Shown: one piece after another, positions 47,456-53,177 of the stretch
Position numbering within the stretch: the stretch's first letter is position 1
Layout: each line of letters begins with the position of its first letter
Origin: Mycobacterium kubicae
GTDB lineage: Bacteria > Actinomycetota > Actinomycetes > Mycobacteriales > Mycobacteriaceae
Reading direction: 5' to 3'
Assembly: GCF_015689175.1 (NCBI RefSeq)
Contig: NZ_CP065047.1
Location: 5,456,001-5,520,000, forward strand
DNA: 64,000 nt
The notes under the pieces: model-generated
Seen by the model: the letters and a program-made list of their open reading frames with translations, nothing else
What the model was told of the DNA's origin: nothing
Databases searched by the model: none
Position numbers and translations under genes: made by a program

Positions 47456-47920
47456 CTAGAAGTCGGTCAGCACTTGCCAGCGACCTGGGACAGCGGTGGC
47501 GCCAATGCCCAATACCCAGCCGCGCGTACCACCGCCGCCGTCCGCACCGCTGCCGACCGACGGGTGCCGCAGCGACAAGTCGGTCGGTGTATCGCTGACC
47601 TCGAGTCTCTCCCGCTTGAAGGCAGGCAACGGTGAGCCGTTGCCTGCCTCGGCCGCCGGGTGAGAGCCGGCAGCCGCAGCCAAGGTCTGCGCAAAATGGT
47701 GCTGGAATGCAACCGCTTGGGCGCGGATTGCCTGGCAGCTTCGACCGTGCGCGTTCAACAGCGCGGCGACGGCGATCGACACCTCGTCCGCCGCCGGGGG
47801 CAACACCCCAGTGGTGGCGGCGGCGGCCGCCGCGCTGGCCGCGCTGATCGCCGTACCGAGGGCATCCGCCTCGCCGGCGACTGCGCTCAAGATGGTAGGG
47901 GTCACGAGTAGATAGGACAT
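47456..47920 (-). CDS. Short PE-family protein with altered export motif
   Basis: This 154-residue protein begins with a PE domain (about 1-95: MSYLLVTPTILSAVAGEADALG) followed by about 60 residues without PGRS repeats, ending RWQVLTDF. The position of the conserved Tyr of the type VII export motif Y-x-x-x-D/E is His87 here (H-P-A-A-E), whereas the PE_PGRS in this window keeps Tyr at 87. No PPE partner gene is adjacent. A 19-bp inverted-repeat element lies 80 bases upstream. It is convergent with the arsB2-like gene. Confidence 0.85.
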   Translation of the reverse strand: MSYLLVTPTILSAVAGEADALGTAISAASAAAAAATTGVLPPAADEVSIAVAALLNAHGRSCQAIRAQAVAFQHHFAQTLAAAAGSHPAAEAGNGSPLPAFKRERLEVSDTPTDLSLRHPSVGSGADGGGGTRGWVLGIGATAVPGRWQVLTDF

Positions 47921-47999
47921 TGGGCGCCTTTCTCAAGCCACGAGCCGGTGACCGCCGGCCCACTCACCCAATGCTTGGCCGCGAGTTAGCCCTGCGCAC

Positions 48000-48018
48000 G
48001 CGTAGTCGACTACTCGAC
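48000..48018. promoter_or_regulatory. 19-bp inverted-repeat copy A (upstream of PE gene)
   Basis: GCGTAGTCGACTACTCGAC at this place is the exact reverse complement of 50762-50780. It includes the 12-bp perfect palindrome GTAGTCGACTAC. It lies directly after the regulator stop and 80 bases upstream of the PE start, a natural operator position for the PE gene. Confidence 0.7.
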
Positions 48019-50670
48019 CTACTTGCGAGCTACCCCAAAACGAGATGCGCTGCCGGGTCCGGATCGCATGATCGACGCCAACTCGTCGCGTGATTGTGCG
48101 CCCACCCGTTGGCAAGCCCGGTAGACGTGGCCCTCGACCGTGCGCACGGACATCACCAGCTTCTCGGCGATCTGGCGGTTGGACAGGCCGGCCACCACCA
48201 GTTCAATGACGTCGCGCTGACGGCCCGACAGCTTAAGACCTGCCGGAGTTCGCAGCGCCGGCGTGCACAGGCCACCACATTCGTTGGCCAATTCGCTGGC
48301 CAACGCTGCCGCATACAGCCCGCGTTTATGCTGCTGGCTCTTTTCGAACGCGACGGCAGCCTGCGCCGCCGCGTCGGCGGCCGCGGCGGCATCACCGATC
48401 TGCCGGTATTGTGTGGATGCCGCCAACAAGCCGGTGCCGTCGCCGCTGTCCAGCGACTCGGCGTGCAGGGCAACGGCATTCGCCAGCGGCAGGGACAGCG
48501 CCTGGGCCAGCTCGCGTGCCCGCGGCGCGAGCGTGGCATCACCCCACTGGGCCGCAGCCTGTATGGCGGCTAGTTCATGGGTAAGCTGGCCGCGCTCGCG
48601 AGCGAGGAGTGCCGCATCATGCGCACTCGCCACGGCCTCGCGCAACCGACCGTTGGCCGCAAGTGCCCAACCTTCGGCCAAGGACAAGCCGGTATGCATG
48701 AACACAAAGTCCGCGGGCACGTACGAGCGCGCTTCGGCCACCGCGTCGTTCGCTGCCTCCGCTTGTCCCAACTTCGCGTGCGCCTCGGCCAACGCAAAAT
48801 AGCTCGCGGGCCGCAAACCCGTTGTCACAGAATGCCGATGCACCCCTGCCAACGCTTCATGCCCCAACCGGGCCGCTTCGGCGACGGCGCCCCGGACGAG
48901 CGCGGCATGGCTCAAAAGAAAGGCTAGATTGGCATACGCCAAACCGGGAACCTCGCGGGCCGTGTCCGCCAGTCGCCTTGCTGTACGGACGAATTCGTCG
49001 ATACGTCCGGTCAGTCGACAAGCGCGGCCGTACACCGCACCGAACCAGAACCGCATATGGGACGCCTGAAACGACGTCGTCGCCCGTCGCAACGCCTGCG
49101 CAGCCACGTCCGCTAGGTCGTCGACCTCGCCCAGCGCTCCCATGGCCATGATCAAGGCGAGCGAAGCCATCATCGCGTGAAAGTCCGGCAAGTCATCCGA
49201 ATCCAAAGCAGTTCGGGCCTTCTCGGCCGCCGATTGGCACCGCGCCGACACCGCATCGAGGCACGCTTGCACGGCCAATCGTTCGGCCACCTGCGCCGGG
49301 GTCTCCCGGCCCGGTGAATTCAGGCAGGCGAGGCGATCGAGAATCACCGCCGCGTCAGTTGGCTTGCCGAGCATCCACACCAAATTGGCCGCCCGCACGG
49401 TCGCCCAATAGTGGCCGTCGGGCAGGTTGGCGTCGGCCAAATCGCGCAGCGCCGCCTCGGCCTGCTCGCCGCGACCGAGCAGCACGAGGTTCATCGCCCG
49501 TACCCCTGCCGCGCCCGGGGCTCCTGCACGAGCGGCGGCGGTGGCGAACCGGTCGGCAAGGTCAAGATCGAGCAGGGTCATCGCGTGCCGGGCCGATTCC
49601 AGGTACAGCCCCGCATCTGGAGCGAGATCCGACTCGAGGTGCAGTAGCCCGCGGCGCACGATGGCCTGCAGGTCTTGTTCACTGTCTTGGGCCAGGCGGG
49701 TGGCCAGCTTGCCCCGGATCGTCGAAAGATACATCTCGCCGGCGTTGGCGCGGCGCAGCTCACCGAAGAGCGGGTGAGCGAGCCTGGCCGCCAGCGTGTC
49801 CCCGGTACGTTCGACAATTACCAGGCCCATTTCCTCCGCGACCTTCAGGTCGCGGCGGCGCACCAGGCCGCAGAGCACATCAACGGCCAGCGGCTCACAT
49901 TGCGAGAGCGTGTCGATAACCACGGCCACCCGCGGGCTCAGCCGGCCCATCTGGGAGGCCACCGAGTCGGAGAGAGTCGCCGACACCGCGACGTCGCCGT
50001 CCCACATCCACACGCCGGCCACGTTGCGCATCCGACCCGCCGAAAGCTGATCGGTCAGCAGCTGATGAAGGAACAGTGTGTTCCCGTTGGTCAGCCTCTG
50101 GAACCGGGCCGCGCTGCGCGCATCGACCGGACCGCCCAGCCTGCTCTCGATCACCTCGCGCGTCGCGGCGGCGGAAAGCGGTTCGAGGTCGAGCCGGGTC
50201 AGCAGCCCGTCTTTCCACAATGCCGTCACCGCGTCGGGCTGCTCATACCCGGCGCGCACGGTGACAACCAGCCTGGCCCCGCCCGACTGCGCCAGCTGAT
50301 GGATGACGAACGCCGATAGCCCGTCCAACTGGTGCGCGTCATCTACGCCCACCACCACACGACCCTGGTGCTGTTGCGTCACAAAGGAATTGACGACTCG
50401 CCGCACGCTCGTCAACGGATCTGACATCGCATCACCGAGCAAGCCGATGAATGCCCCGAGTGGCAGCGCTCGTGCTGACTCGGTGCCAACGACCCACTTC
50501 GTGCGCTCACCCGATGCCGCGGCGCGTCGCAGCGCCTCGCGGGCCAACCATGTCTTGCCGACGCCGGGCGCTCCGGCGATGACCACACCACAATGGCCGC
50601 CGCCACTCAAGGCTCGGCGGATGACCTCCAATTCACTGTCGCGCCCGGTCAGCGGCTCGGCGCCGATCAC
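48019..50670 (-). CDS. Large LuxR-family ATPase transcriptional regulator (LAL type)
   Basis: This is an 883-residue LAL regulator. The N-terminal AAA-like ATPase has Walker A GAPGVGKTWL near 30 and Walker B RVVVGVDDAHQL near 110. The middle (about 330-790) is helical and TPR-like. The C-terminal LuxR/FixJ HTH (LKLSGRQRDVIELVVAGLSNRQIAEKLVMSVRTVEGHVYRACQRVG) is near 815-860. The GTG at 50670 gives M-I-G-A-E-P-L-T-G-R; a longer frame to 50793 would cover the upstream 19-bp repeat and is thought untranslated, though the ribosome site is weak. Likely partners are the flanking PE gene and the divergent oxidoreductase gene. Its signal is unknown. Confidence 0.88.
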   Translation of the reverse strand: MIGAEPLTGRDSELEVIRRALSGGGHCGVVIAGAPGVGKTWLAREALRRAAASGERTKWVVGTESARALPLGAFIGLLGDAMSDPLTSVRRVVNSFVTQQHQGRVVVGVDDAHQLDGLSAFVIHQLAQSGGARLVVTVRAGYEQPDAVTALWKDGLLTRLDLEPLSAAATREVIESRLGGPVDARSAARFQRLTNGNTLFLHQLLTDQLSAGRMRNVAGVWMWDGDVAVSATLSDSVASQMGRLSPRVAVVIDTLSQCEPLAVDVLCGLVRRRDLKVAEEMGLVIVERTGDTLAARLAHPLFGELRRANAGEMYLSTIRGKLATRLAQDSEQDLQAIVRRGLLHLESDLAPDAGLYLESARHAMTLLDLDLADRFATAAARAGAPGAAGVRAMNLVLLGRGEQAEAALRDLADANLPDGHYWATVRAANLVWMLGKPTDAAVILDRLACLNSPGRETPAQVAERLAVQACLDAVSARCQSAAEKARTALDSDDLPDFHAMMASLALIMAMGALGEVDDLADVAAQALRRATTSFQASHMRFWFGAVYGRACRLTGRIDEFVRTARRLADTAREVPGLAYANLAFLLSHAALVRGAVAEAARLGHEALAGVHRHSVTTGLRPASYFALAEAHAKLGQAEAANDAVAEARSYVPADFVFMHTGLSLAEGWALAANGRLREAVASAHDAALLARERGQLTHELAAIQAAAQWGDATLAPRARELAQALSLPLANAVALHAESLDSGDGTGLLAASTQYRQIGDAAAAADAAAQAAVAFEKSQQHKRGLYAAALASELANECGGLCTPALRTPAGLKLSGRQRDVIELVVAGLSNRQIAEKLVMSVRTVEGHVYRACQRVGAQSRDELASIMRSGPGSASRFGVARK

Positions 50671-50761
50671 TGGGCGACTATAACTTCGCCCGGGCCTGCG
50701 GTGGGCCGAAGCGTGCTCATTGGGGGAGCATTTCGGGGGCTGGTTCAGTCCGCACGCAGAA

Positions 50762-50780
50762 GTCGAGTAGTCGACTACGC
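50762..50780. promoter_or_regulatory. 19-bp inverted-repeat copy B (between regulator and oxidoreductase genes)
   Basis: GTCGAGTAGTCGACTACGC is the exact reverse complement of 48000-48018. It lies 92 bases upstream of the preferred regulator start and 68 bases upstream of the oxidoreductase start, in the divergent promoter region. The match stops exactly at 19 bp on both sides, as expected for a binding site rather than a duplicated segment. Confidence 0.7.
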
Positions 50781-50847
50781 TATCGCCGCCCACGCCGGGC
50801 TTTGAGCATGGCTTTCGTCAGCGAACGACGGGCGAAGGTGGTGTGCT

Positions 50848-52275
50848 ATGCACAAGGTCGGCAGTCACGCGGTGGTGTTAGGTGCGAGCATGGCTGGTCT
50901 GCTGGCCGCCCGGTCGCTGGCAGACTTCTACGACACCGTGACGGTGATAGAACGCGACAGGTTGCCCGAGGTTCTAGATAATGCCACTGCCCGCCGCGGT
51001 GTGCCGCAGGGCCGGCATCTGCACGGGTTGCTCGCCCGCGGCGCCCAGATAATCGAGGAGCTGTTCCCCGGCATCCTCGACGAATTGGTCCAAGACGGCG
51101 CGCACTACTTCGACGGCCGTGATCTCTCGAAGTTGTATTACAACGTCGGCGGCCATCTCATGGTCCGCACCGGCGGCGCCGCCTCGTTCAACGCCTATCT
51201 GGCGACCCGGCCCTTCCTTGAGGCTCACGTCCGCGAGCGGGTGCGCGGCATTCCCAGCGTCACACTGCTCGACGAGCATGACGTCGTGACGCTGACCGCG
51301 ACCCCCGATCGCCAGTGCATCACGGGCACGCGGATAGTCAATCGTCGTACCGGAGATGAAGCCGTGCTGGCGGCCGACCTGGTGGTCGATGCCACCGGGC
51401 GCGCCGCCCGCACACCGTGCTGGCTGGAGGACCTGGGCTACGGCCGCCCGGTCGAAGACCAGGTGGTGGTCCATCTGACCTACACAACACATCTGCTGCG
51501 GATGGCACCGGATAGCCTGCATGAACTCGGAGTCCTCGTCGGGATTGTGCCGGGTCGGCCCCACGGGGTGGGCCTGATGCATTGCGAGAACGACACCTGG
51601 GTTTTTACGGTGATGGGCATAGCAGGTCACGAGCCGCCCTCTGACCTTTCAGCAATGTGCGAATTCGTCGCGGACTACGTACCTGCGCACATGCTGGCCG
51701 CGGTGCGAGCCGCCGAACCCGTCGGAAAGCCCACACGGCACCGTCAACCGTGCAGCCAATGGCGCCGTTACGACAAGATGCGGCGATTCCCGGCAGGCCT
51801 GCTGGTCGTCGGTGACGCGATCTGCAGCTTCAACCCGGTGTACGGACAAGGCATGACCGTGGCGGCGCTGGAGATGTCGGCGTTGCGCGACTGCTTGTCC
51901 AGGGGCACCCGGGATCTGGCGAAACGATTCTTCCGCGCCGCGGCCGTGCCGATCCGCCAAGCCTGGTCACTGTCAGCGAGTCCCGATCTTTCCCTCCCCG
52001 AAATCGACGGCACTGCGCCGGCTTTGACGCGACTGCTCAATGCTTACGTCGACCGGGTGCTCACCGCGGCCGAATATGACCCTGTCGTCCTGGAGCAGTT
52101 CACCAGGGTGACCTCACTGCTCGACCCTGCCGGCCGGTTGCTGCGGCCCGCAATCGTGTGGCGAGCGGCCCGCGCCCGCGCTCGTCAACCCCAAGACGGC
52201 ACTCACGGACGAGAAAAAGCGCGGGGCAGAGCCATGCCCAGTGAGGCCAGTACGCCGCGCAGCCTCGTCGGGTAG
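50848..52275 (+). CDS. FAD-dependent oxidoreductase (monooxygenase-like)
   Basis: This is a 475-residue flavoprotein of the PHBH/halogenase-like fold. The FAD dinucleotide motif VVLGASMAGLLAARSLAD is at about 9-26, followed by VTVIERDRLP. A second FAD motif, GLLVVGDAICSFNPVYGQGMTVAALE, is near 320. Many similar mycobacterial proteins have no known substrate. The last 24 codons overlap the convergent phosphodiesterase gene, and this tail (rich in Arg, Gly and Ser) may be of low constraint. It shares a divergent promoter region with the LuxR-type regulator gene, which probably controls it. Confidence 0.88.
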   Translation: MHKVGSHAVVLGASMAGLLAARSLADFYDTVTVIERDRLPEVLDNATARRGVPQGRHLHGLLARGAQIIEELFPGILDELVQDGAHYFDGRDLSKLYYNVGGHLMVRTGGAASFNAYLATRPFLEAHVRERVRGIPSVTLLDEHDVVTLTATPDRQCITGTRIVNRRTGDEAVLAADLVVDATGRAARTPCWLEDLGYGRPVEDQVVVHLTYTTHLLRMAPDSLHELGVLVGIVPGRPHGVGLMHCENDTWVFTVMGIAGHEPPSDLSAMCEFVADYVPAHMLAAVRAAEPVGKPTRHRQPCSQWRRYDKMRRFPAGLLVVGDAICSFNPVYGQGMTVAALEMSALRDCLSRGTRDLAKRFFRAAAVPIRQAWSLSASPDLSLPEIDGTAPALTRLLNAYVDRVLTAAEYDPVVLEQFTRVTSLLDPAGRLLRPAIVWRAARARARQPQDGTHGREKARGRAMPSEASTPRSLVG

Positions 52276-53177
52276 TCGGTGATGATTCCGTCTACGTCGT
52301 AGCCGATCTGTATGCGCATGGCGTCGGTGTCATTGACGGTCCACGGAATGACCTTGAGGCCCAATCCGTGTGCCCGCGCGGTGAACGACTTCCCGGTGAC
52401 CTGTTGGTAGTTGGGCGACAATATGGTGGCCCCCACCATGGTCGCGCCGACGATCGGATCGCCGACTACCGCCGGATCGATGCCCGCCAGCCATGGTGAT
52501 CCCGGCGTCCAGCTTTGCTCAGTCCACAAGGCGACCAGGGGGATCGACGGCTCGGCTTGGCGCACCAACGGTAACGTGCGCCAGTCGAAGCTCTGAATCT
52601 CCACCCGGTCGACCTTGGCGGCGGCACGTACCGCGGCCAATATGACGTCGACGAACTCCTGCGGACCGGCGCTGGAGTCTGGATGGTCGGCCGGTACCTT
52701 CGTTTCGATGTTGTAGCGCACGTCTGCTCGATAGGAGTCGGTCACCGTGAATACTTCGGGCAGTATCGCAATCTTGTTGCCCCGCACCACCTCTGCGGCC
52801 GGGAACTCGGCACTGGGTTTGCCGCAGTCCAGTGTGCGGATCTGCGCGAGGGTGAGGTCGTGCACCGACTTGCCGACGTAGGGAAAGTCCGGGTCGCCGT
52901 CGAATGCGGGGCCGGTGTCGCTGCACGCGGTGGCCGCAATGTTCAGATCGTGCCACACCAGCGGTTGACTGTCCTTGGTAACAACGATGTCCAATTCCAG
53001 TGTGGTTACGCCGATTTCGACTGACTTCGCGAACGCGGGCAGCGATTCACCGGTAGTTTCGCCGCGCCCTCCGGCATGCGACTGCAGGTCGAAGCCGGCC
53101 GATTGGCCGGACACCGGGCCCGGCGCAATGAGGGCGATGGCCAGCGTCAGCAGGACTGCCAGCGGCCGCGCGCTCAC
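52203..53177 (-). CDS. Secreted glycerophosphodiester phosphodiesterase
   Basis: This 324-residue GlpQ/GDPD family enzyme hydrolyses glycerophosphodiesters outside the membrane. Residues 1-25 form a signal peptide (MSARPLAVLLTLAIALIAPGPVSG). Catalytic segments are HAGGRGETTGESLPAF near 35, LELDIVVTKDSQPLVWHD near 60 with the metal-binding Glu/Asp and His, and VNDTDAMRIQIGYDVDGIITDYP near 290. The GTG at 53177 directly follows the rlmB stop, so it is likely the last gene of the cysS1-rlmB unit. It overlaps the oxidoreductase gene by 73 bases. Confidence 0.9.
   Translation of the reverse strand: MSARPLAVLLTLAIALIAPGPVSGQSAGFDLQSHAGGRGETTGESLPAFAKSVEIGVTTLELDIVVTKDSQPLVWHDLNIAATACSDTGPAFDGDPDFPYVGKSVHDLTLAQIRTLDCGKPSAEFPAAEVVRGNKIAILPEVFTVTDSYRADVRYNIETKVPADHPDSSAGPQEFVDVILAAVRAAAKVDRVEIQSFDWRTLPLVRQAEPSIPLVALWTEQSWTPGSPWLAGIDPAVVGDPIVGATMVGATILSPNYQQVTGKSFTARAHGLGLKVIPWTVNDTDAMRIQIGYDVDGIITDYPTRLRGVLASLGMALPRAFSRP

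Follow-up and report, generated by a model that had tools for sequence, protein, structure and literature searches.

A candidate operator shared among Mycobacteriaceae on both sides of a LAL-type regulator gene in Mycobacterium kubicae

The locus and its inverted repeat

The locus described here lies in a stretch of 64,000 nucleotides from Mycobacterium kubicae (contig NZ_CP065047.1, positions 5,456,001 to 5,520,000), the whole of which is called the window. Its genes and features follow each other in the order TrmH (presumably the identity of the gene beyond GDPD), GDPD, FAD oxidoreductase, copy 1 of the repeat, LAL regulator, copy 2, PE and ArsB-like transporter (Table 1), and the layout of a PE gene, an 883-residue LAL gene and a divergent FAD oxidoreductase gene is the one that an earlier note on this DNA had given. 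The regulator belongs to the LAL family as a large protein with an N-terminal AAA_16 NTPase and a C-terminal LuxR/GerE HTH domain. It scored 39.4 bits against the NCBIfam equivalog model of IniR (NF038181, cut-off 750) and 221.8 bits against that of AbsR2 (NF050132, cut-off 850). Matches to it of at least 59% identity were counted by hand, some of them partial, in 74 of the 198 genomes of the genus, its own included, and the named records with close relatives are Mycobacterium and Mycolicibacterium. The FAD oxidoreductase falls by sequence homology into the class of the Lsd18/MonCI-type monooxygenases. Lsd18/LasC and MonCI are flavin epoxidases of polyether pathways; the window protein is homologous to them over most of its sequence, and no polyether cluster was seen among the open reading frames of the 44-56 kb region.

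Table 1. Positions of the genes and putative regulatory elements in the window
Feature	Position	Strand	Remarks
PE protein, 154 aa	47456..47920	-	Pfam PE 6.5e-26; lineage-specific occupant of the target-2 slot
-10-like AAGCAT of the PE gene	47971..47976	-	begins at base 32 from the operator centre; not TANNNT
Operator copy 2	48000..48018	-	reads GTCGA-GTAGTCGACTAC-GC towards the PE gene; matrix score 32.2
LAL regulator, 883 aa	48019..50670	-	Pfam AAA_16 4.6e-8 (residues 7-132), GerE 4e-12 (residues 814-867)
Putative -10 TATAGT of the LAL gene	50677..50682	-	six bases before the GTG start
Operator copy 1	50762..50780	+	reads GTCGA-GTAGTCGACTAC-GC towards the FAD monooxygenase gene; matrix score 40.3, the best of the window
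-10-like GAGCAT of the FAD gene	50804..50809	+	begins at base 32 from the operator centre; putative function
Lsd18/MonCI-like FAD monooxygenase, likely target 1	50848..52275	+	phmmer against PDB: Lsd18/LasC E 4.1e-55, MonCI 1.8e-47

The earlier note had reported an exact 19-bp inverted repeat without a further copy, and this was borne out. Copy 2 reads GCGTAGTCGACTACTCGAC on the forward strand and copy 1 is its exact inversion; no third copy is present in the window at up to three mismatches (0.01 expected), and the 16-mer TAGTCGACTACTCGAC, by which the 19-mer was sought through the whole genome (6,016,837 bases, 6.02 Mb), occurs at exactly two places, both of them the repeat copies, so that none is scattered elsewhere in the genome. 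Looser matches over the genome, with up to three mismatches to GAGTAGTCGACTACTC, did not exceed background: 19 on the forward search, where the reversed control gave 23. The perfect 12-bp palindrome claimed for each copy (GTAGTCGACTAC) is likewise there, and the identity between the copies stops abruptly at 19 bp on both flanks. Copy 2 touches the stop codon of the LAL gene (48019-48021), and the ATG of the PE gene lies about 80 bp downstream of it.

The operator among mycobacterial genomes

The earlier note had pointed to related mycobacteria as a place to look for the motif, and there TCGAGTAGYCGACTACKC, at up to one mismatch, was found in 86 of the 198 Mycobacterium genomes, with 229 forward and reverse matches against 5 for the reversed control (near-palindromes may count twice in these numbers). 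When families were compared, with the positive genomes counted by eye, the motif was present in 15 of 35 genomes of the genus and in 6 of 20 from other genera of the family, and in other families its 8 positive genomes among 243 did not rise above background, the reversed control giving 6.

Outside the LAL locus 86 loci (80 + 6) with 93 sites were chosen by hand among the matches listed. Although genes cover 84% of the DNA by our own gene calls, just three of these hand-picked sites lie inside a called gene, and a called gene starts 15-350 bp away from 83 of the 93; where genes start on both sides of a site, either may be the target. The 117 proteins encoded near the sites form 73 clusters, one of which consists of homologues of the FAD monooxygenase (present at 7 of the 86 loci); 60 clusters were scanned by Pfam and 19 of these had no family. 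Oxygenase and redox genes are represented by P450, haem peroxidase, tyrosinase, AurF-like, luciferase-like and acyl-CoA dehydrogenase families, hydrolase-type genes by PLD, patatin and Tle1-like phospholipases and by M4, astacin and subtilase proteases, and further proteins near the sites carry emfourin, CHAT and caspase domains. At L262 two operators stand 43 bp apart (around 3072 and 3115) between divergent genes for an animal haem peroxidase and a subtilase, and L263 is similar. At L271, L276, L132 and L133 the operators precede an M4 thermolysin-like protease gene with a divergent tyrosinase gene, or the gene of an emfourin-domain protein, emfourin being an inhibitor of M4 proteases.

The sites of the relatives share an asymmetry in the direction of the target: in 47 of 55 distinct sites the palindrome is followed by G, and the position after that is C in all 55. 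The repeat of the window is best read as two copies of a conserved operator, which in the direction of the gene is AGTCGA-GTAGTCGACTAC-GC. The FAD and the PE genes are transcribed outwards, so that two copies with the same orientation towards their targets are inverted relative to each other, and recombination is not needed to explain the arrangement.

To our knowledge, few mycobacterial regulators of the large LAL type have a defined operator or regulon. An operator with 93 sites, named targets and natural cases of presence and absence offers a handle on what the LAL regulators control, and it predicts that oxygenases and hydrolases without any other apparent connection are co-regulated. The interest of the locus lies in this family-wide operator, of which no description was found in the literature searched, a literature that leaves most subscription papers outside; the same search gave no paper on TAGTCGACTA in Mycobacterium or on GTAGTCGACTAC, and PMC3282765 holds no words beginning with "palindrom" or "inverted".

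Genes and promoter elements beside the operator copies

The LAL was searched in the 198 genomes of the genus, and its loci were compared together with 71 named loci, which gave 113 distinct LAL loci of at least 50% identity when identical DNA present in both collections was counted once. Sites were scored with a weight matrix built from the LAL loci. An operator facing the FAD gene within 650 bp was found in all 36 loci with an adjacent divergent FAD gene against 1 of the 77 without; the positives scored 18.9-40.3 and all negatives but one stayed below 16, in a comparison that flatters the positives, many of which had served to train the matrix. In the alignment of 16 FAD-LAL intergenic regions the conserved elements are the operator, TATAGT before the LAL start and GANCAT on the FAD side.

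The upstream copy thus follows the FAD gene, and the proposal of the earlier note that the regulator controls itself is left unsupported by it. When sites in either orientation are admitted up to a distance of 800 bp, five of the 77 FAD-less loci have one upstream of the LAL gene (-167 to -692), and these may leave room for self-control elsewhere. At these five loci, L071, L072, L081, L092 and L163, the upstream sites all face in the direction of the LAL gene. A separate observation concerns M. lepraemurium (L203), where the operator is degraded, with the lowest score of the 36 FAD-adjacent loci (18.9), and the best piece of the LAL alignment extends over only about 1 kb; such a decayed locus is in line with the genome decay of this species.

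On the other side, 109 loci had enough DNA 3' of the LAL gene. The longest open reading frame after copy 2 is an unreliable guide in DNA of high GC content, and the genes of this slot were therefore assigned by tblastn, with Pfam names for the occupants. The operator was present in 13 of 14 loci where the next gene is P450a, in 2 of 2 with P450b, in 6 of 6 with DUF3303 and in the single one with PE; where ArsB follows the LAL directly it was found in 1 of 20 and absent in 19, and where the next gene is another or an unidentified one, in 4 of 66. The one P450 locus counted without a site, L075, has one scoring 24.4 in the separate scoring of that locus, and was probably missed through a misplaced LAL end. 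At L152 an operator scoring 30.8 is kept 3' of the LAL gene although ArsB is the next gene, possibly as a relic of gene loss.

PE occupies the slot in the window alone among the loci compared. No orthologue of the PE protein was found among the candidates scored, at most 19 per genome, in the 197 other genomes of the genus, the top-scoring match being 47% identical over residues 1-133 and the listed matches reaching 51% in the PE domain only, and none was seen by DNA comparison among three matches per genome. In the nearest relative found, G010, a LAL gene 86-89% identical (in two contig pieces) is followed directly by ArsB, and both PE and copy 2 are missing; together with the slot counts this indicates that the operator comes and goes with the gene behind it. 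PE is accordingly rejected as a conserved partner or defining member of the module, the role in which the earlier note had cast it. As far as the compared loci go, the downstream copy is to be regarded as the companion of a replaceable gene, namely P450, DUF3303 or PE.

Both copies keep a constant distance to a -10-like element. At 34 of 36 FAD promoters [GA]AN[CT]AT stands at offset 32-33 from the operator centre, and of the 27 downstream promoters 20 have a TANNNT that begins at 32 or 33, the PE promoter being among the other seven. The same spacing emerges from the sites of the whole genus, where, over 186 site-directions and with the operator centre defined one base off, TANNNT peaks with 21 matches at two adjacent offsets, the mean for a single offset being 0.6. 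If transcription started 6-7 bp past the -10 element, the operator would be centred near -43, a class II position. Conserved, intergenic and fixed in their spacing to -10-like elements, the copies have properties expected of class II operators, and the earlier note's view of them as regulatory sites holds to this extent. The LAL gene itself has TATAGT-N6-start in 15 of the 16 aligned intergenic regions (counted by eye), which suggests a leaderless mRNA.

The geometry resembles that of the lux box, a palindrome of about 20 bp which in class II promoters is centred near -42 and overlaps the -35 region. The present operator, likewise a palindrome of about 20 bp, would also be centred near -42 and overlap -35, but it differs from the lux box in its sequence, in having as its likely binder a LAL and not an autoinducer receptor, and in its many unrelated targets.

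Proposed mechanism and alternative explanations

The conservation of the operator, its target-ward orientation, the 32-33 bp spacing and the co-occurrence with target genes, all of them properties of sequence, form the basis of the following reading, to which we assign a probability of about 0.6. A LuxR-type HTH protein, dimeric and most likely identical with the LAL whose gene lies between the two copies, would bind the palindrome of this Mycobacteriaceae-wide operator over the -35 region and would activate the genes that point outwards: the Lsd18-like flavin monooxygenase gene on one side, and on the other a replaceable gene, which may be P450, DUF3303 or, here, PE. A palindromic site fits the C-terminal GerE HTH domain of the LAL, and we infer that the ATPase and middle domains would sense a signal. 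We further consider, as a tentative extension that we hold somewhat less probable than its opposite, that accessory enzyme genes repeatedly came under one Mycobacteriaceae operator read by LALs of overlapping specificity. The recruits would then include flavin and P450 monooxygenases, a haem peroxidase, a tyrosinase, an AurF-like oxygenase, phospholipases, M4, astacin and subtilisin proteases and caspase- or CHAT-like proteins, with PE as a recent one; if true, newly acquired genes would join an already existing regulon for the response to stress or chemicals.

The identity of the binding protein is the point where the main rival has to be weighed, according to which some other conserved regulator, either of another HTH family or a global LAL paralogue, acts at the operator, while the window LAL is just a neighbour or a target. 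Sites are more frequent in genomes with the LAL (55 of 74) than in those without it (31 of 124; Fisher p 1e-11 with kinship ignored, the site counts including the LAL-locus sites and LAL-positive status having been assigned by hand), and this holds when the nine genomes with LAL-locus sites only are counted as having none (about 46 of 74, p 4e-7, kinship again ignored). In 19 of the 74 genomes with the LAL no site was present at up to one mismatch, and a LAL-like stretch lies near the sites in 6 of the 86 loci outside the LAL locus (L251, L255, L261, L309, L310 and L312). Among FAD homologues that do not adjoin a LAL gene, a site (matrix score of at least 16 within 350 bp) was present at 11 of 20 promoters in LAL-positive genomes against 12 of 19 in LAL-negative ones, or at 9 of 18 against 9 of 16 when the sites known beforehand (two LAL-positive, three LAL-negative) are set aside; outside that count, the LAL-positive L396 has a site, known beforehand, and the LAL-negative L353-L355 have none. 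At G116, finally, the FAD gene stands directly beside ArsB without a close LAL (best match 35%), and the operator is intact.

The operator is therefore not private to the window LAL, and in the LAL-less genomes its binder must be either a paralogue of the LAL or some other protein. The retention of the operator in these genomes and at the G116 locus, and the fact that the upstream site follows the FAD gene and not the LAL, speak for a different regulator. Against it stand the position of the only two strong sites of the window genome, both flanking the LAL gene, the distance of the second-best long LAL match in that genome (31% identical), the higher frequency of sites in genomes with the window-type LAL, and the small number of regulators near the sites: those scanned comprise a LAL (L309), two related AAA/BTAD proteins (L312, with a homologue in L129), a cyclase-AAA protein (L248) and an ECF sigma factor (L321). 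In the part of the loci compared, LALs with adjacent sites hardly differ in their recognition helix from those lacking them, so that the helix does not separate the two groups. Mycobacteria are rich in LuxR-type HTH regulators, with 7 to 40 matches to the HTH domain of the LAL per genome in 28 genomes. The recognition helices of the LAL paralogues are much alike, and the operator is probably shared genus-wide by several of these paralogues, an explanation we prefer to a different protein, which we regard as rather unlikely though the strongest competitor; the window LAL would be the likely binder at its own locus.

Activation by the bound LAL also has to be set against repression, in which a protein sitting over -35 would block RNA polymerase until a ligand releases it. 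A repressor, too, would be compatible with a palindrome that overlaps -35, and so would it be with the TANNNT -10 element of most downstream promoters (20 of the 27), but the -10 elements of the FAD promoters are weak, mostly GANCAT instead of TANNNT, which suits activation, and the spacing is constant within a base, as it is with activators that touch the polymerase. The two LAL proteins compared here, IniR and TpdR, are, moreover, activators. IniR (Rv0339c/MMAR_0612), a mycobacterial AAA+ ATPase induced by trehalose, activates iniBAC by binding directly upstream of the operon (PMC5760070), and TpdR of Rhodococcus jostii is a LAL activator of the catabolic tpdABC genes whose repeat box overlaps -35 (PMC6099782). 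The window LAL resembles IniR as an AAA ATPase regulator with a matching C-terminal part, but remains far under the NCBIfam cut-off of that family, and the main text of the IniR paper contains neither "palindrom-" words nor "inverted repeat" (PMC5760070); the site proposed for TpdR is, unlike the palindrome of the window, a 15-nt direct repeat (PMC6099782). On these grounds repression appears unlikely and activation is retained.

Still less probable is that copy 2 is a functionless leftover or chance copy at the PE gene. The lineage specificity of PE, its poor -10 element and the lone site of L152, which has no target gene, would agree with this, but copy 2 occupies the place of the P450/DUF3303 operator of the relatives together with its flanks (TCGA before, GCGTGC after), and the PE start lies at a normal distance from it.

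The second possibility raised in the earlier note, that the copies are recombination sites which flip the 2.74-kb LAL segment, is suggested by exact inverted repeats on either side of the segment but has practically no remaining likelihood, for among 64 loci of at least 70% identity (records present in both collections count twice) the segment has one orientation relative to ArsB in 55 of 55 and to GDPD in 49 of 49 with no inverted case, copies elsewhere stand before unrelated genes and are mostly single, and no recombinase was recognized by eye among the translations of 44-56 kb. Terminal repeats of a mobile element were also considered and rejected, given the two genomic copies only and the unrelated genes that the copies precede elsewhere.

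The earlier note is in sum partly supported: its observation stands and it is right in that the copies look like operators, whereas its readings of PE, self-control and inversion are wrong or unsupported. Two minor features of the outward genes can be added. The FAD monooxygenase gene (50848-52275) and the convergent GDPD gene (52203-53177) overlap by 73 bp. In most PE proteins the secretion motif is YxxxD/E, and in the PE protein of the window (47456-47920) GSHPAAE is found at its place, with the tyrosine replaced.
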